NCBI RefSeq assembly: GCF_001704615.3
Contig: NZ_CP029397.2
Span: 372,001-436,000, forward strand
Reading direction: 5' to 3'
Source of the DNA: Acinetobacter defluvii
GTDB lineage: Bacteria > Pseudomonadota > Gammaproteobacteria > Pseudomonadales > Moraxellaceae
DNA length: 64,000 nt
The position numbers were made by a program, and so were the translations under genes. Below the pieces are notes generated by a model, which was given only the letters and a program-made list of their open reading frames with translations, did no database searches and had not been told where the DNA came from. Of the stretch, positions 30,688-55,485 are shown one piece after another (the first letter of the stretch is position 1; each line of letters opens with the position of its first letter).

Positions 30688-32823
<2,136 letters not shown>

Positions 32824-34024: not shown

Positions 34025-35053
34025 TTAAGGAGAATTTTTGCATAACGCAGCACGATGACAATCTCGATGAAAATCAGAGGGTGTTAATTGTAAGAGCGTT
34101 ATCAGCGAATCACGTTGCTTGTCATACTCATCTTGTTTCCAATCAGGGTAGTAGTTCGACGTATGCTTTAAAAAAAGCTTTGCTTTTTCAGAGAGTTTTG
34201 AATGGGGTTGTTGGGCAAGCCACAGCAATGCGGGTTTGACCTCTTTAGTTTCAACAAAATAGTGTCCATTTGCAAAACCAAAAGTATCGGAGTTGTCTGA
34301 ACCCATAAAACTCAAATATTCGTATTCTTTAAACAACAATTGTGCATCTTGAATAAAATAACTCTTGGGATATTGTTGAATATATTTTTCCCAAAACAGG
34401 GCACGTTCAACGAGTTCTTGCCAAGGAATCGCAATCGCTGCATCAGAATATAAAATATCAGAATTGTCCTTTGCCATGCGTTGAATGAACAGCGCTTCGG
34501 CTTTGGGTAAATAGGGAACAAACATATCTACTGCGTATTGGGGATTTTGTTTAAGCTCAAAATAACCTTCACCAATATCTAAAAATTGAATGTATTGTTT
34601 ACCGATGTGATCAATTAAATATTGATCACGTTGTGGTAAAGTTTTCTTGATAATTGCTGCATTTTCATAACCCAAATCTTTTGCATTTTCAGGATAAGCT
34701 TTGGCGTAACCATAGGCATTTAGACCTTCCATCGACTCATCGCCTGAAGCTGTGGTCAAAAACCGTTGATACATTAGATCTGTGCTTTCAAGTAGTTGAT
34801 AAATTTGTGTATTGTTCAGTTTTGGTGTGCATTTTTTGACTGCTGTATTGGCAGCGCTAAGCTGTTGAATAGAGCTTTCTTGGCTAATTCGAGATAAAAT
34901 TTCATGGGTATCAGCAAAACAATCTACTTGAGTGATCAGCTCCGCTTTAGCTTTTTGTTGGGTTTCGTGGTGTTGTGCGGTTGAAGTTGGCTTTTGGTGG
35001 CAGGCAGCTAAAACAATAAAACTGAGCGTGCAGTAGACTATTTTTTTCATCAT
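34025..35053 (-). CDS. Uncharacterised lipoprotein, copy 2 of a tandem paralogous trio
   Basis: A 342-residue predicted lipoprotein (MMKKIVYCTLSFIVLAAC, lipobox LAAC). The shared core reads RDQYLIDHIGKQYIQFLD, NPQYAVDMFVPYLPKAEALF, LFWEKYIQQYPKSYF and FKEYEYLSFMGSDNSDTFGF. The C-terminal tail has two cysteines in FHRDCHRAALCKNSP, matching the tail of copy 3. It lies 47 bp upstream of copy 1 on the same strand. No domain that I can name. Confidence 0.8.
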   Translation of the reverse strand: MMKKIVYCTLSFIVLAACHQKPTSTAQHHETQQKAKAELITQVDCFADTHEILSRISQESSIQQLSAANTAVKKCTPKLNNTQIYQLLESTDLMYQRFLTTASGDESMEGLNAYGYAKAYPENAKDLGYENAAIIKKTLPQRDQYLIDHIGKQYIQFLDIGEGYFELKQNPQYAVDMFVPYLPKAEALFIQRMAKDNSDILYSDAAIAIPWQELVERALFWEKYIQQYPKSYFIQDAQLLFKEYEYLSFMGSDNSDTFGFANGHYFVETKEVKPALLWLAQQPHSKLSEKAKLFLKHTSNYYPDWKQDEYDKQRDSLITLLQLTPSDFHRDCHRAALCKNSP

Positions 35054-35156: not shown

Positions 35157-36236
35157 TTAGCTTTGAGGCGAAATACAAATAGAATCGCTAAAGCAATCTC
35201 GATTTTTTGCAGTCAAGTGAATGTTTTTTAAATTTAACAATTGATTTAACTGTGCAACAGCCAATTGGTGTGGATCATTTTTAACTTTCTGCAATTGTGC
35301 AGCAGGTAGCTTTATTTTCTCAAGGCGCTGTTCAGGTGTCATATTGACATATTGAATAAACTGATTGGCTTGTTTTGCTAAGATGCTATTTTGTTGCTGA
35401 GCCAATGCTTCAATTTCTAGCCAGACTGAAGTTGAAATGTCATTTTGATCAATATACTGAACAGAGGTAGGGGAGTTCTCTGTGCCTTTAAATAATAAAG
35501 CACGATAGCTTTGTTCTAGATATTGCGCATCTTTAAGATAACTACTCTTAGGATAGTTTTTGATATAGCTTTCCCAGAAAATTGCCCGCTGTACAATTTC
35601 ATTGGGGCTAATGTTCAGTTTTTGATTTTGCAATAATGGATGACTGTTCTGTAATGCCAAGTGTTCAATAAAAACTTTTTCCGCTTCAGGTAAATAAGGT
35701 GCAAAAACCTTGGCTAAATATTGTGGATGACGGCGGTAATATATATTTTGTGGTCCTTGATCTACCAATTCAATATATGCCTGACCTTGATGACGAATCA
35801 GATATTGATCACGAATATTTAGTTGTTCAAAATGGCTCTGTTGAATCGTAGGATATTCAGATTTGTCGAGGGCATAATTTTCAAAGGCAAGTTGTTCTAA
35901 GGGAGTGCGCTCAATCGTTAAAAATTGTTTATACATCTGATTGGATAGATCTATAAGCTGCTTTTGCTCAGCCCATTCCATTAAAGGTAAACATAAACGA
36001 ATGTCTTGGTTCACCTGTTCAATGGCTAAAGTTGTGCGTTGTGGCGTCATTGCCAACATTTCTTGTTTTAAATTTTCACAAATTAAGGTGAGATCAGGTT
36101 GAACATTTTCAGGTTTAGGGGTTGTTTGGGTTTCTACGACGATCTCAGGTTCAGGTTTTTGACATGCCAAAAGCACAGCACAAACGCTGACAATGATACT
36201 CAGTGACTTTAGATTATTAAATAAATTTAAATTCAT
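35157..36236 (-). CDS. Uncharacterised lipoprotein, copy 3 of a tandem paralogous trio
   Basis: A 359-residue predicted lipoprotein (hydrophobic segment then LLACQKP, lipobox LLAC). The shared core reads RDQYLIRHQGQAYIELVD, HPQYLAKVFAPYLPEAEKVF, IFWESYIKNYPKSSYLKDAQYL and YRALLFKGTENS. The tail KNRDCFSDSICISPQS again carries two cysteines. The ATG at 36236 is chosen for the signal peptide; a longer in-frame start at 36281 exists and neither has a strong ribosome binding site. First gene of the cluster, 103 bp before copy 2. Confidence 0.78.
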   Translation of the reverse strand: MNLNLFNNLKSLSIIVSVCAVLLACQKPEPEIVVETQTTPKPENVQPDLTLICENLKQEMLAMTPQRTTLAIEQVNQDIRLCLPLMEWAEQKQLIDLSNQMYKQFLTIERTPLEQLAFENYALDKSEYPTIQQSHFEQLNIRDQYLIRHQGQAYIELVDQGPQNIYYRRHPQYLAKVFAPYLPEAEKVFIEHLALQNSHPLLQNQKLNISPNEIVQRAIFWESYIKNYPKSSYLKDAQYLEQSYRALLFKGTENSPTSVQYIDQNDISTSVWLEIEALAQQQNSILAKQANQFIQYVNMTPEQRLEKIKLPAAQLQKVKNDPHQLAVAQLNQLLNLKNIHLTAKNRDCFSDSICISPQS

Positions 36237-36502
36237 GCGATCATTTGAGATAAACGGGGGGGAGAGATTTTTACTAAGCATATTGTTACTTAAAACTGCA
36301 TCAAGGTATGCAATATTTTGTAGCTTTATGGCTTAAATGCGTTACATCGTATCAAGTTTTCAAGATAAAATTAGTCAAAAATGTATCCTAATAAAAGCAT
36401 TTATATCGACAATTAAAATCTGTCATCAAAACTTCATAATAAGTATGCTTAAATATGGCAACTTCTTTATCATGCCATTTCACTTGTTGTGGAGTAAACA
36501 CT

Positions 36503-37225
36503 TTGAGCCCAAATAATCCTGCATTAGGACACCATATTTCTTCACAATTTAATGAAGATTTACAGGCTGTAAATACAAAATTTATGACAATGGGTGGATT
36601 GGTTGAACAACAAGTTGCAAACGCAATTCATGCCTTATTGGATACCAATGCGAACCTTGCCATTGATGTGCAGTTTCAAGACAATGCAGTAAATCAGTTT
36701 GAACGCGAAATTGATGAAGCTTTAACTTTGATTTTGGCACGTCGCCATCCAGCGGCAATTGATTTACGCATGGTGATTGCGATGAGTAAAGCCAATACTG
36801 ATTTAGAGCGTATTGGGGATGAGGCAGCAAAAATTGCACGTATTGCGCAAACCCTATGTGAAGAAGGGGAGTCGCCACGCGGTTATATGGAAACACGTCA
36901 TATTGGAAACCAAGTACGTGTCATGATTCATGATGCTCTAGATGCCTTTGCACGAATTGATGCCGAACAAGCTTTAAAAGTTTTATTGGCAGATGCGGAT
37001 ATTGATCGCGAATATCAGTCTGCAACACGTACCTTGATGACTTATATGATCGAAGATCCTCGTCATATTAGTCGTGTGATCAATGTAATGTGGGTATTGC
37101 GTTCTTTAGAACGTATTGGTGATCATGCGCGAAATATTTCAGAACAAGTGATTTATATGGCAAAAGGATATGATGTGCGCCATACTAACATTGAAGAAAT
37201 TGAAGAAAAAGTACAAGGAAAATAA
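36503..37225 (+). CDS. phoU: Phosphate-signalling regulator PhoU
   Basis: A 240-residue protein of two PhoU helical-bundle repeats, with the conserved HISSQFNEDLQAVNTKF and MTMGGLVEQQV segments and ExxxD metal-site motifs (LERIGDEAAKIA and LERIGDHARNIS). PhoU holds PhoR in the off state when phosphate is plentiful and restrains the Pst transporter. The TTG at 36503 with GGAG 8 nt upstream fits the family; an earlier in-frame ATG (36455) would add a non-conserved Cys-rich extension. No pst genes are adjacent, so phoU stands alone here. Confidence 0.92.
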   Translation: MSPNNPALGHHISSQFNEDLQAVNTKFMTMGGLVEQQVANAIHALLDTNANLAIDVQFQDNAVNQFEREIDEALTLILARRHPAAIDLRMVIAMSKANTDLERIGDEAAKIARIAQTLCEEGESPRGYMETRHIGNQVRVMIHDALDAFARIDAEQALKVLLADADIDREYQSATRTLMTYMIEDPRHISRVINVMWVLRSLERIGDHARNISEQVIYMAKGYDVRHTNIEEIEEKVQGK

Positions 37226-37328: not shown

Positions 37329-37440
37329 AAAAAAATTCCTAGATTTTTGGGGGAAAATCTAGGAAAGAAAACAGAAATATTCTGGAGAATATTTACCTAA
37401 TGTTTATTGCCTTGGGGAAACAATAGTTTCATTAGCTGAT
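37329..37440 (-). ncRNA. Candidate small RNA between phoU and yggX
   Basis: Read on the minus strand, this stretch folds into three consecutive stem-loops. (a) 37397-37435: outer stem CTAATG/CATTAG and inner stem TATTG/CAATA with an 11-nt loop TTTCCCCAAGG. (b) 37375-37394: a 9-bp perfect palindrome AAATATTCT/AGAATATTT. (c) 37336-37365: a 12-bp perfect stem with loop CCCCCA, followed by seven T, a strong intrinsic terminator. A -10-like TATGAT (37447-37452) would start the RNA near 37440, giving about 110 nt; no good -35 is seen. No ORF or annotated gene on that strand explains the terminator, because yggX has its own. C-rich loops suggest base pairing with G-rich ribosome binding sites (inference). 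Confidence 0.65.
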
Positions 37441-37452
37441 GTAGTTATCATA

Positions 37453-37620
37453 CGAAAAAACTATGCAACAATCATGATGACTCGTGTGTGTTGAATGTAA
37501 AATTGCATTTCAGCATGTAATTAGCTCAATTAAAGTCATTGTGTAGTTATATTGCATAATGTGTTTTTTAAAATGGTAGAGCTTCTCGTCTTGCAATATA
37601 GCGGAGCAGTGCTCTTATGG
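37453..37620. other. Remaining noncoding stretch between phoU and yggX
   Basis: AT-rich, no ORF with a credible start. It contains a near-palindrome AATTGCAT/ATGTAATT (about 37500-37521) and could hold the promoter of the candidate sRNA. Otherwise I see nothing. Confidence 0.5.
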
Positions 37621-37624
37621 CATT

Positions 37625-37649
37625 AAAAAGGAGCCTGCTTAGACTCCTT
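37625..37649 (-). terminator. Intrinsic terminator of yggX
   Basis: On the minus strand: AAGGAG / CTCCTT stem followed by a T-run, about 70 bp after the yggX stop. Confidence 0.75.
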
Positions 37650-37690: not shown

Positions 37691-37721
37691 TAATTTTTAG
37701 CGTAGCACTCTAAAAATTACT
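37691..37721. repeat. Inverted repeat at the yggX stop codon
   Basis: Perfect 11-bp inverted repeat GTAATTTTTAG / CTAAAAATTAC with a 9-nt loop; the stop codon of yggX is inside one arm. It could protect the 3' end of the mRNA from exonucleases. Confidence 0.7.
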
Positions 37722-37986
37722 CAGGCTTTAGACCTTCCGCTTTTTCCAATGATTCATCATTGTTGAAGAATTTCTCACGCTGTTCTTCAAGAAACTTTTT
37801 CGCATCTGCTTCAAACACATTTAAGCGTTTTTCATTAATTAAAGTGGTTTGATGTTTGAGCCATTCTTGCCAAGCTTGTTTAGACACCGTGTCAAATAAC
37901 TCTTGACCCTTTGCACCCGGAAATGGAGCAAAATCTAAAGCTTCCATTTCTTTTTGATATTTACGGCAAAATACTTGTCGAGACAT
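37717..37986 (-). CDS. yggX: Fe(2+)-trafficking / oxidative-damage protection protein YggX
   Basis: An 89-residue protein with the family N-terminus [21 protein letters not shown], including the conserved Cys7, the [15 protein letters not shown] segment and the [18 protein letters not shown] helix. YggX guards iron-sulfur enzymes against oxidative damage and may deliver iron. It lies 28 bp downstream of argH on the same strand and may be co-transcribed with it. Confidence 0.93.
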
Positions 37987-39537: not shown

Positions 39538-40587
39538 ATGCAAAATGCTCAAAATCGCTCACATTTTTTTAGCAAAATCAGCCAATGGCAATATTTTATT
39601 GAGCTTTTTATTGGCAGTAATGTCTTGGCTTTGCTGTTGGCATTGGCTGAGGCACAGGCATGGTCAAACTTACAATTGAATCATGTGCTGCAATATATTT
39701 TATATATTAATTGGGTGCTACTGGCATTTACGGCATGGATTGATTTTTTTCAACATATACTAAAAAAAATGAGTGATGTCCAAGCTGCAATTTTTGGATT
39801 TGTTTTGCTTGAGTTGATTGTTTGGGTGACTACAGTTGTTTTAAATATTGTCTTACACTGGGGGGGGCATTTTTCATTAAGCCAACTAAGCAGCGATATT
39901 GTTTTTGAAAATGTCATTTTACATTTGAGTTATGGCGCACTCTTGGGGGCGTTTTGTCTGCGTTATATTTATATGCGTGGACAATGGTTTAAACAACAAA
40001 ACAGCGAATTAAATGCGCGTGTACAAGCCATGCAAGCACGTATTCACCCACATTTTTTATTTAACAGTTTAAACAGTGTGGTGAGTTTGATTAGTATTGA
40101 TCCTGATAAAGCAGAGCAGATGCTCATTGATTTGTCGAAATTATTTCGGGTCAGTTTTCAAGAATTAAAACTGGTGACTTTGGCAGAAGAAATTGAATTA
40201 TCTAAAAAATACATAGGAATTGAACAAATTCGACTGGGAGAGCGTTTAAATGTTGAATGGAATATTCAACAACCCGAGCTGTTGCATAAAGTCAAAATTC
40301 CTCTATTAACCTTACAACCTTTGGTTGAAAACAGTATTTTTCATGGGGTTGAAAAGAAACATATCAATGCAAAAATTGGGATACTGGTTGAAATATTGCA
40401 AAATCAAGTCACTATAGTCATTACTAACCCATTTATACAAGATAGAATGAATTTGAGAGAAGGACATGGTATTGCATTGGAAAATGTAAAACAGCGCTTA
40501 TATGCGCACTTTGGGGATTCTGTTCAATTTCGAAATTTTGCAGGAAATGGACGTTTTACCACAGTCATGCAATATCAATATAAGTAA
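39538..40587 (+). CDS. LytS/AlgZ-type sensor histidine kinase
   Basis: A 349-residue membrane kinase with four to five hydrophobic segments (about residues 20-150). The His-kinase domain follows with the phospho-acceptor in HPHFLFNSLNSV (about 171-182), then an ATPase domain with LVENSIFHG (N-box) and GHGIALENV (G-box). This layout is that of LytS, YehU and AlgZ/FimS. In Pseudomonas AlgZ works with AlgR, and algR precedes hemC; the same order is found here. Signal and regulon are unknown in this organism. Confidence 0.85.
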   Translation: MQNAQNRSHFFSKISQWQYFIELFIGSNVLALLLALAEAQAWSNLQLNHVLQYILYINWVLLAFTAWIDFFQHILKKMSDVQAAIFGFVLLELIVWVTTVVLNIVLHWGGHFSLSQLSSDIVFENVILHLSYGALLGAFCLRYIYMRGQWFKQQNSELNARVQAMQARIHPHFLFNSLNSVVSLISIDPDKAEQMLIDLSKLFRVSFQELKLVTLAEEIELSKKYIGIEQIRLGERLNVEWNIQQPELLHKVKIPLLTLQPLVENSIFHGVEKKHINAKIGILVEILQNQVTIVITNPFIQDRMNLREGHGIALENVKQRLYAHFGDSVQFRNFAGNGRFTTVMQYQYK

Positions 40588-40638
40588 TACAATTCGTGAT
40601 GAATACATTAAAATAATGATGATGTAAAAGGAGGGAAA

Positions 40639-41376
40639 ATGGACATCCTAATTTGTGATGATGAGCCTCTAGCAGTTGAGCGATTGTCACGGTTAGTATC
40701 GCAATTGGGGCATCATGTGGTTGCCACTGCGCAACATGGTCAACAAGCATTAGAACTCGCAGCACAATATGCACCTGATGTGGTTTTGTTGGATATCCAA
40801 ATGCCTGAAATGGATGGTTTGGAGTGTGCCAAACATTTAAGTCAACTTGACCCAATGCCTGCAATTATTTTTTGCACAGCTTATGACGAGCATGCATTAC
40901 AGGCGATTCAATCTCAAGCAAAAGGATATTTGTTAAAACCAATCGCGAAAGACGATTTAAATGCGGTATTGGAGAGTTTAACCAAGTTAACTCAAGCCCA
41001 AATAACTAACTTAGAAAAAAAAGAACTCATGGAAGAAAAAGTGCAAAGACAGCAAATTGCTGCAAAAACTTATCGTGGTCTGGAATTGATACCCATTGAA
41101 AATATTTATTATTTTTTAGCGGATCAAAAATATGTCACTGTACGCCATAAAAATGGCAGCGTGCTTATCGATGAAACTTTAAAAGATTTAGAGCAGGAGT
41201 TTGCTGATAAATTTATTCGTATCCATCGTAATGCTTTAATTTCTTTAGATTATTTAGATGGTTTGGAAATGGTGGCATCTGGGCAATACCAAGTTCGTTG
41301 TCGAGAATTAGGTGAAAAATTAGCCGTGAGTCGCCGACATTTACCGAGTTTAAGAGAGCGTATGCAAAACTTATAA
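40639..41376 (+). CDS. AlgR/LytTR-type response regulator
   Basis: A 245-residue regulator with a receiver domain (acidic DDEP at residues 6-9, phospho-acceptor Asp in VVLLDIQMPEMDG) and a LytTR DNA-binding domain (about residues 140-240, with the conserved KYVTVRH and FIRIHRNALISLDYL segments). It follows its kinase by 51 bp and precedes hemC by 91 bp. It is probably the orthologue of Pseudomonas AlgR; I leave the symbol open because the regulon cannot be inferred. Confidence 0.87.
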   Translation: MDILICDDEPLAVERLSRLVSQLGHHVVATAQHGQQALELAAQYAPDVVLLDIQMPEMDGLECAKHLSQLDPMPAIIFCTAYDEHALQAIQSQAKGYLLKPIAKDDLNAVLESLTKLTQAQITNLEKKELMEEKVQRQQIAAKTYRGLELIPIENIYYFLADQKYVTVRHKNGSVLIDETLKDLEQEFADKFIRIHRNALISLDYLDGLEMVASGQYQVRCRELGEKLAVSRRHLPSLRERMQNL

Positions 41377-53611: not shown

Positions 53612-53687
<76 letters not shown>

Positions 53688-53742
53688 TCTTAAAGTTTTG
53701 TGATATAGTAGTAAAGGTTCAGCACTGAAAGTAAGTGTAATT

Positions 53743-53826
53743 GGTGAGGTTCCCGAGCGGTCAAAGGGAGCAGACTGTAACTCTGCCACGAAAGTTTCGA
53801 AGGTTCGAATCCTTCCCTCACCACCA
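53743..53826 (+). tRNA. tRNA-Tyr (anticodon GUA)
   Basis: 84-nt tRNA with a long variable arm (class II), as expected for bacterial tRNA-Tyr; anticodon GUA; CCA encoded. Confidence 0.95.
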
Positions 53827-53861
53827 TTAACTTTGATTGAAGTGGTTTATACCAACATTAA

Positions 53862-53937
53862 GCGGGAGTAGCTCAGTTGGTAGAGCGGTAGCCTTCCAAG
53901 CTACATGTCGCGAGTTCGACCCTCGTCTCCCGCTCCA
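53862..53937 (+). tRNA. tRNA-Gly (anticodon UCC)
   Basis: 76-nt cloverleaf, acceptor GCGGGAG / CTCCCGC, anticodon UCC. The three bases after the discriminator are CCA. Confidence 0.95.
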
Positions 53938-53950
53938 ATCGAAGATGATT

Positions 53951-54025
<75 letters not shown>

Positions 54026-54064
54026 GATTACAGTTTAGTAGATTGAAATCTACAAAAATTTTTA

Positions 54065-54090
54065 AAAAGCAGGCTTATTAGTCTGCTTTT
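54065..54090 (+). terminator. Hairpin between the tRNA cluster and tufB
   Basis: 8-bp stem AAAAGCAG / CTGCTTTT with only a short T-run. It may be a partial terminator or a processing site between the tRNAs and tufB. Confidence 0.6.
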
Positions 54091-54173
54091 CAAGTATTGG
54101 GTGTCTGGTTTTTAGACAATATGTCGATGGGTTGTATTTAGAACTGTGTTCGACGTAAACGAGGAAAATAAAC

Positions 54174-55364
54174 ATGGCTAAGGCTAAGTTTGAACGTAAT
54201 AAGCCACACGTAAACGTGGGCACAATCGGTCACGTTGACCATGGTAAAACAACTTTAACAGCTGCAATTGCAACTGTATGTGCAAAAACTTTTGGCGGTG
54301 AAGCGAAAGATTACGCTGCAATTGACTCTGCACCAGAAGAAAAAGCACGTGGTATTACAATTAATACGTCTCACGTAGAATACGACTCTCCAATCCGTCA
54401 CTATGCACACGTAGACTGCCCAGGACACGCCGATTATGTTAAAAACATGATCACAGGTGCTGCTCAAATGGATGGCGCGATCCTTGTATGTTCAGCGACT
54501 GATGGTCCAATGCCACAAACTCGTGAACACATCCTTCTTTCTCGTCAAGTAGGTGTACCTTACATTATTGTTTTCTTAAACAAATGTGACATCGTTGATG
54601 ATGAAGAGTTAATCGAATTGGTTGAAATGGAAGTTCGTGAACTTCTTTCTACTTATGACTTCCCGGGTGATGACACTCCGGTGATCCGTGGTTCAGCTTT
54701 AGCTGCACTTAACGGTGAAGACGGTCAATACGGTGTTCCAGCTGTTCTTCAACTTGTTGAAGCACTTGACACTTACATCCCAGAACCAGAACGTGCGATC
54801 GATAAAGCATTCTTAATGCCAATCGAGGACGTATTCTCTATCTCTGGTCGTGGTACAGTAGTCACTGGTCGTGTTGAATCAGGTATTGTGAAAGTAGGCG
54901 AAGAAGTTGAAATCGTAGGTATCAAAGACACGGTTAAAACAACTGTAACTGGCGTTGAAATGTTCCGTAAACTTCTTGACGAAGGTCGTGCGGGTGAGAA
55001 CTGTGGTATTCTTCTACGTGGTACTAAACGTGAAGACGTACAACGTGGTCAAGTATTGGCTAAACCAGGTTCAATCAAACCACACACTAAATTCGACGCA
55101 GAAGTATATGTACTTTCTAAAGACGAAGGTGGTCGCCATACACCATTCCTTAACGGTTACCGTCCACAATTCTATTTCCGTACAACTGACGTAACTGGTG
55201 CAATCCAGTTGAAAGAAGGCGTTGAAATGGTAATGCCTGGTGACAACGTTGAAATGTCAGTAGAATTGATCCACCCAATCGCAATGGACCCAGGTCTACG
55301 TTTCGCGATTCGTGAAGGTGGTCGTACAGTAGGTGCTGGTGTAGTTTCTAAAGTTACTGCATAA
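54174..55364 (+). CDS. tufB: Elongation factor Tu
   Basis: A 396-residue translation GTPase with G1 [14 protein letters not shown] (about residues 19-32), the switch [15 protein letters not shown]4 NKCD and the C-terminal barrel domains. It carries aminoacyl-tRNA to the ribosome. Codon use is strongly biased to a few codons, as for highly expressed genes. The gene follows the tRNA cluster and precedes tRNA-Trp. The kirromycin- and EF-Ts-contacting regions look intact. Confidence 0.98.
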
Positions 55365-55376
55365 TCATTATATCTC

Positions 55377-55404
55377 AAACCGAGGATTACGATTCTCGGT
55401 TTGT
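55377..55404 (+). terminator. Terminator-like hairpin after tufB
   Basis: 8-bp stem AAACCGAG / CTCGGTTT with a 10-nt loop and a poor T-run, so readthrough to tRNA-Trp and secE is possible. Confidence 0.65.
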
Positions 55405-55409
55405 ATTAT

Positions 55410-55485
55410 AGGTCAGTAGTTCAATTGGTAGAGCGTCGGTCTCCAAAACCGAATGTTGGGGGTTCGAGTCCCTCCTGACCTGCCA
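55410..55485 (+). tRNA. tRNA-Trp (anticodon CCA)
   Basis: 76-nt cloverleaf, acceptor AGGTCAG / CTGACCT, anticodon CCA; CCA end encoded. It sits between tufB and secE, as in Pseudomonas but not in E. coli. Confidence 0.95.

Follow-up and report, generated by a model that had tools for sequence, protein, structure and literature searches.

Between yggX and phoU, the genome of Acinetobacter defluvii very probably contains an independent gene for a small RNA (sRNA), predicted at about 112 nt and read from the minus strand. The window, i.e., the whole stretch of DNA that was analysed, comprises 64,000 nucleotides (contig NZ_CP029397.2, positions 372,001 to 436,000 of the forward strand), and all coordinates below count from its first letter. 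The gene is well supported by a promoter in fixed register, a terminator of its own, a bounded conserved block, a covarying stem, a near-constant loop and a single copy. As judged from the letters, both the promoter and the intrinsic terminator of the element lie within the intergenic region. The full reading, that of a genus-wide, activator-driven, trans-acting sRNA whose C-rich loop blocks G-rich ribosome binding sites (RBSs), is given a probability of about 0.65; the action of the C loop on RBSs, taken by itself, is fairly probable.

For transcription, Hfq, the activator, the pairing and the targets, we infer the following course. An activator sitting at the -35 position, on an overlapping 10-bp direct repeat, would turn on a promoter in which only the -10 box is good. 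The resulting transcript would measure about 112 nt in the window, with a 5' end and a length varying by clade, and would have at its 3' end a terminator with a U tail, to which Hfq probably binds; such a tail is a typical Hfq site. A run of about five C in the terminator loop would serve as the seed, assisted in many clades by a second C run upstream, and would pair with G-rich stretches (UUUGGGGGAA-like) at RBSs, with translation being blocked as the outcome. The mRNAs of pilZ and perhaps pilH may be among those controlled. The parts of the locus are the following.

36455..37225, plus: phoU, the convergent neighbour (TIGR02135 / PF01895)
37329..37440, minus: predicted sRNA transcript of about 112 nt (fold, conserved block, span between -10 box and terminator)
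37329..37335, minus: seven T 3' of the terminator stem, i.e., the U tail (sequence), with a putative role for Hfq
37336..37365, minus: intrinsic terminator hairpin of 12 bp, with a stem that covaries genus-wide (terminator scan, fold, covariation)
37349..37353, minus: CCCCC of the terminator loop, the proposed seed (C-run counts over 140 loci)
37375..37394, minus: middle hairpin of 8 bp, AAATATTC-TCCA-GAATATTT (fold; identical in the window and the four nearest sequences)
37397..37435, minus: two-tier 5' hairpin with outer stem CTAATG/CATTAG (fold; kept in the window and the four nearest sequences)
37414..37417, minus: second C run (CCCC) in the loop of the 5' hairpin (count over 129 distinct regions)
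37441..37516, minus: conserved promoter and regulatory region (conserved-block alignment)
37447..37452, minus: -10 box TATGAT (sequence; 19-nt register with the repeat)
37472..37487, minus: direct repeat ACACGA-N4-TCATGA at the -35 position, the proposed activator site (sequence, genus comparison)
37628..37649, minus: inverted repeat AAGGAGTC/GGCTCCTT, the likely yggX terminator, with a short T tail (sequence; absent from the terminator-scan list)
37717..37986, minus: yggX, oxidative damage protection protein, the upstream neighbour on the same strand (NF003817 / PF04362)

Fold and boundaries of the predicted RNA

An earlier note on this DNA had proposed three consecutive stem-loops on the minus strand, the last of them a terminator, and sequence, folding and a terminator scan all agree with this. 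The terminator reads TTCCTAGATTTT-CCCCCA-AAAATCTAGGAA-TTTTTTT (37365-37329, minus), with the 12 perfect pairs, the 6-nt loop and the seven T that had been described, and as the T run is found on one side only, transcription should stop on the minus strand. The segment 37440-37329 folds with a minimum free energy (MFE) of -26.2, compared to -14.0 +/- 2.8 for 200 shuffled versions (z -4.4), none of which folds as well. Other details were adjusted. The palindrome in the middle, described as 9 bp, does form a hairpin, but with 8 pairs in the fold. Both loops do carry C runs, CCCCC in the terminator and CCCC in the 5' hairpin, but the latter loop narrows to CCCCA in the MFE structure. The picture of three hairpins is confined to the window and its four nearest sequences, in one of which (L005) the inner stem of the 5' hairpin is weakened, and other aligned clades have a 5' hairpin of different sequence. 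The TATGAT announced near the 5' end is located at 37452-37447, 6 nt ahead of 37440 (-12 to -7).

On the minus strand between the predicted RNA and yggX no open reading frame of at least 40 aa was found, as had been stated. Within the 5' hairpin there is an ATG...TAG frame of 11 codons (37432-37397, minus), and the RNA could in principle specify a short peptide, either as a dual-function RNA or as a leader. The frame is open in the window and in the four nearest sequences, with a length of 36 or 33 nt. Against a peptide, it has no visible RBS, and its start and stop are located in the self-complementary stem CTAATG/CATTAG, which alone yields the pair. Since, moreover, no equivalent frame was seen by eye in the few other clades inspected, this explanation is extremely unlikely.

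The element is a bounded conserved block of 200 bp (37516-37317) amid drifting surroundings, and contains approximately 76 nt of promoter region besides the RNA. This follows from an intergenic alignment of the window with three relatives (L002, L004 and L005; L003, which ends at a contig end, was left out), counted in bins of 20 nt. The bins before 37517 have 0-16 identical bases, and those from 37516 to 37337 have 11-20, with at least 16 in 24 of 27 values. The bin of the T tail still has 13-20 identical bases and the next one 5-7, after which the values rise again to 10-19 towards the phoU terminator.

At the gathering threshold, Rfam 15 recognizes in the whole window only five tRNAs and a TPP riboswitch, and on eight homologous loci one TPP riboswitch and nothing else. 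Scanned at a relaxed cutoff (E up to 5), the segment 37240-37520 gave 10 matches, all below threshold, with NsiR1 having the lowest E-value (21.4 bits, threshold 39). The TPP riboswitch of the window (RF00059, 32697-32830, minus, 63.4 bits) is located upstream of a 639-aa ORF (about 30688-32607, minus), presumably thiC. The five tRNA genes are found at 53612-55482 on the plus strand, with a 396-aa ORF (about 54174-55364) between the last one and the rest. Further features seen by eye are the adjacent ORFs 34025-35053 and 35157-36281 on the minus strand (342 and 374 aa), which look like diverged copies of a single lipoprotein-like protein, and, at 39538-41376 on the plus strand, a membrane sensor kinase-like ORF followed by a 245-aa ORF in a LytS/LytR- or AlgZ/AlgR-like arrangement.

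Distribution in the genus and variation of stem, loop and 5' half

The number of Acinetobacter genomes in which the element is detected depends on the search. By blastn it is present in 43 of 175, with no copies on plasmids, whereas a covariance model of the terminator (R1) has one match each in 150 of the 175. Applied without filters to 16 loci that had been missed, R1 recovered four more (38.7-52.9 bits, none of them in the training set), two of which belong to genomes without a match in the filtered search. Approximately 23 of the 175 genomes have no match after both searches. In 389 other genomes of the order, of which at least two do belong to Acinetobacter, R1 had 0 matches, 17 candidates having been scored per genome. 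Its presence as a single copy in 150 of 175 sampled genomes makes the element a strong candidate core regulator. A pattern scan of named genomes is unspecific by itself, as Acinetobacter accounts for 20 of the 80 matches listed (from at least 120 stretches); among these matches are A. nosocomialis, A. lactucae, A. calcoaceticus, A. haemolyticus, A. venetianus, A. beijerinckii, A. tandoii, A. courvalinii and A. dispersus. From the membership of its complex, A. baumannii would be expected to carry the element as well.

YggX (PF04362) is encoded in 174 of the 175 genomes, and the locus set comprises 156 loci from 153 of them. A terminator finder requiring CCCC and at least seven clean pairs matched 140 of the 156 loci, with a double match in one. 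Three of the 140 have no yggX in the fetched stretch, two of them near contig ends (L003, L015) and one mid-contig (L008). In L008 the element (1501-1550) adjoins phoU and yggX is located on another contig, so that the neighbourhood seems rearranged. Two further loci (L103, L135) have yggX-phoU gaps of 131 and 137 bp and no sRNA; they seem to lack it cleanly or to have lost it.

This neighbourhood bears on the possibility that the element is a product of the yggX 3' UTR or a second yggX terminator, lacking its own promoter, with a hairpin that only stops read-through towards phoU. In all 137 loci holding both, the terminator is indeed downstream on the yggX strand, and the main text of PMC12802169 reports the 3' UTR-derived sRNAs HemZ and OmpZ in A. 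baumannii. The distance to yggX nevertheless ranges from 171 to 950 nt, and in L008 the element stands beside phoU mid-contig without yggX in the fetched flank. In addition, yggX appears to have a terminator of its own, as the earlier note had claimed: the inverted repeat is there (37649-37628), but its T tail is short and the terminator scan does not list it. Conservation is poor from yggX up to the block, in contrast to the -10 box and the repeat, which are retained in fixed register, and a plain terminator has no need for a constant C run. An origin from yggX is thus unlikely, and an independent gene is the preferred reading.

A conserved element acting at the DNA level, e.g., a barrier between convergent genes, would fit the convergent orientation of phoU in 94 of the 137 loci. 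The fetched stretch of the other 43 yielded no phoU, and the element is nevertheless present. As the one-sided T run, the -10 box and repeat in register and the pairwise compensatory changes also argue for an RNA, a DNA-level function is very unlikely.

These compensatory changes were examined in an alignment of 55 distinct terminators, in which 10 of the 11 stem pairs are changed on both sides. There are 77 cells with both sides changed, compared to 22.9 +/- 3.9 after shuffling, which ignores relatedness, and no more than 11 with the partner slid. At sequence level, the terminator stem is a conserved RNA structure with compensatory change, and forms as different as TCCTAGATTT, GTCCTGAACTT, CTCCCAGACTTT and CCCAGTTCTT occur among the terminators of the genus. 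The earlier note had named non-compensatory loss of stems and loops as evidence against the RNA; for the terminator the opposite is seen, and the pairs of the 5' domain hardly vary within clades but differ between them. The longest C run in the hairpin is 5 in 116 of the 140 loci, 6 in 19 and 4 in 5, although both this run and the percentage of pairing are partly so by construction, because the finder accepted only hairpins with CCCC and seven or more clean pairs. Matches by blastn are independent of this finder, as are the four later R1 finds, though the training set of R1 came from it. The loop thus appears near-constant at about five C while the sequence of the stem keeps changing, which suggests that it switches genes off by pairing with the G-rich start signals of mRNAs. 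If true, stem, 5' half and length have been rewritten many times around an unchanged loop.

The 5' half is, in the aligned sequences, clade-specific and changes freely between clades. According to the clade alignments, the A. baumannii-like group has the hairpin CACGA/TCGTG, whose loop contains CCC, the haemolyticus-like group has GAGA/TCTC and another clade AAGAT/ATCTT; the consensus fold of the lwoffii-like group has no 5' hairpin. Of 129 distinct regions, 52 have a second CCCC no more than 75 nt from the terminator, compared to a mean of 8.0 (maximum 22) after shuffling; this second run is missing in 13 of the 14 haemolyticus-like rows printed. As controls, GGGG is found in 1 of 129 regions, and CCCC in the stretch further upstream in 4 of 133.

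Instead of an antisense seed, the C-rich loop could be a protein-binding or titration site, making the RNA a decoy. The constant core is short, and the bases beside it change together with the stem; a protein reading a C-rich loop would tolerate this too. The second C run in 52 of the 129 regions is better suited to pairing. Two further points count against a decoy: a regulator binding C loops is not known from Acinetobacter, and CsrA binds GGA, i.e., the opposite sense. A decoy function is therefore improbable, and base pairing by the loop is preferred.

Promoter and proposed activator

Of 134 distinct upstream regions, 90 contain a direct repeat ACARGA-N4-ACATGA (unchanged in 41), compared to 5.8 per mononucleotide-shuffled set, when at most one change per half and a spacer of 3-5 are tolerated; 44 of the 134 have no match, and a few matches are out of register. 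In 82 of the 90, the best TATAAT-like hexamer follows exactly 19 nt after the repeat, ties having been broken towards 19, and in 43 it is TATAAT itself. The window conforms to this arrangement: the repeat (37487-37472, one change per half) is followed by 19 nt and then by TATGAT (37452-37447). A promoter scan of the window does not list the sRNA promoter, because it has no TTGACA-like -35 region. Activators of the OmpR/PhoB type sit on a 10-bp repeat that replaces a -35 region, and such a protein may act here.

In the genome, a regulon search with the repeat gave 99 matches, compared to 50 for the reversed control, most of them in long open frames. Thirty of the matches were examined, and a 5-of-6 -10 box at 19 nt was present at the sRNA alone; in another of them (L299) the -10 box is located at 21 nt instead. 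A PhoB box next to phoU was rejected, as the repeat does not read TGTCA-N6-TGTCA by eye. The RstA box TACATNTNGTTACA has a 10-bp spacing, like the repeat of the sRNA promoter. A paper from 2025 on BfmR reportedly deals with a direct-repeat motif and with sRNAs, and BfmR is a tentative candidate for the activator; in the literature searched by title listings, no motif was found.

Candidate targets and relation to known sRNAs

The exact complement of the terminator loop, TTTGGGGGAA, has five copies in the 3.8 Mb genome, compared to one for the reversed pattern. The first lies opposite the RNA itself; a second is at the RBS of a gene encoding a PilZ-domain protein (PF07238), flanked by what we take to be holB and tatD frames; the remaining three appear to fall in coding sequence. 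Among the 30 best matches from 169 genomes with this pilZ gene, all 30 have GGGG within 30 nt of its start and three have GGGGG. As a background, 3 of 53 long ORFs of the window have GGGG within 22 nt of their start, the starts being uncurated. The wider pattern GGGGGA-N3-10-ATG has 72 places in the genome (43 for the reversed control), of which 71 were inspected. Many are not gene starts, and besides pilZ and pilH a dozen or so look like real ones. The gene taken for pilH starts at one of these places and encodes a single-domain response regulator (PF00072); of 26 genomes looked at, 14 have its G run conserved.

The predicted duplexes depend on the part of the RNA that is used. With the 40-nt terminator stretch, pilZ ranks 27th and pilH 61st of the 72 rows by duplex energy, and several other apparent gene starts rank above both. 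The 22-nt apical part by itself places both ahead of all 53 leaders of the window; when the 5' domain is used, pilZ is ahead of all 53 and pilH of 50 (3 of 53 match or beat it). These pairing scores are no test, since both genes were picked after the fact, for matching, and GGGGA is also a plain Shine-Dalgarno sequence. On such evidence pilZ is a doubtful target, judged slightly less probable once the energy ranks were set beside the rest, and pilH is a less sure candidate still. The most far-reaching version of the model takes the loop of five C for the whole portable seed of a genus-defining sRNA under a two-component activator, controlling mRNAs with a G run at the RBS, including pilZ and pilH, throughout Acinetobacter, its pathogens included; it can be put forward only tentatively. 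If true, the targets include regulators of twitching and type IV pili, which would fit the 13 type IV pilus targets in exponential phase reported by an Hfq RIL-seq study (PMC12802169, Table 1); pilZ is not mentioned in its main text. The near-constant loop is a directly testable seed and the promoter points to one activator.

The RNA had been called likely undescribed, and this stands as far as Rfam, which has no matching family, and the main texts compared are concerned. Those of PMC11472050, PMC12802169, PMC5538643 and PMC3976366 mention neither phoU nor yggX, PMC12646401 does not mention phoU, and in the AbsR table none of 31 rows gives PhoU or YggX as neighbour. Searches with the letters of the element returned unrelated papers only, and among the titles listed for Acinetobacter sRNAs with phoU or yggX none was relevant. 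As the comparison covered Rfam and main texts, the A. baumannii orthologue may already be catalogued and carry a number in published sRNA lists.

Among known systems, RNAs of the Staphylococcus RsaE type and Bacillus FsrA have UCCC-type loops, whose exposed C runs act on G-rich RBSs. The same action is proposed here; phyla and structures differ.

Within the genus, SabS of A. baumannii is described as an intergenic sRNA that depends on the ECF sigma factor SigAb (PMC12153292). A dedicated regulator is proposed for the new element as well, but its promoters mostly have a TATAAT-like -10 box. As the comparison is with the published description of SabS, the two RNAs could in principle be identical. 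Aar (sRNA21) is found in Acinetobacter only, measures about 100 nt, has a less conserved 5' end and most conserved 3' hairpins, and sequesters RBSs, according to the main text of PMC11472050; its seed holds CUCC at nt 29-32 (main text of PMC12802169). It resembles the new element in genus, size, variable 5' end and conserved 3' hairpin. The two are set apart, on the description of Aar, by the A. baumannii-like forms of the element, which show no CTCC when read by eye from the -10 box to the T run.

In its proposed mechanism the element would resemble RepG from Helicobacter pylori, described in PMC8295292 as an intergenic sRNA, located between hp1043 and hp1044, that uses the C/U-rich loop of its terminator to bind a G run in the leader of an mRNA. 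The Acinetobacter element likewise has a C-rich terminator loop, which is nearly constant, but it belongs to another genus and another locus, and the sites proposed for it are short G runs at RBSs.
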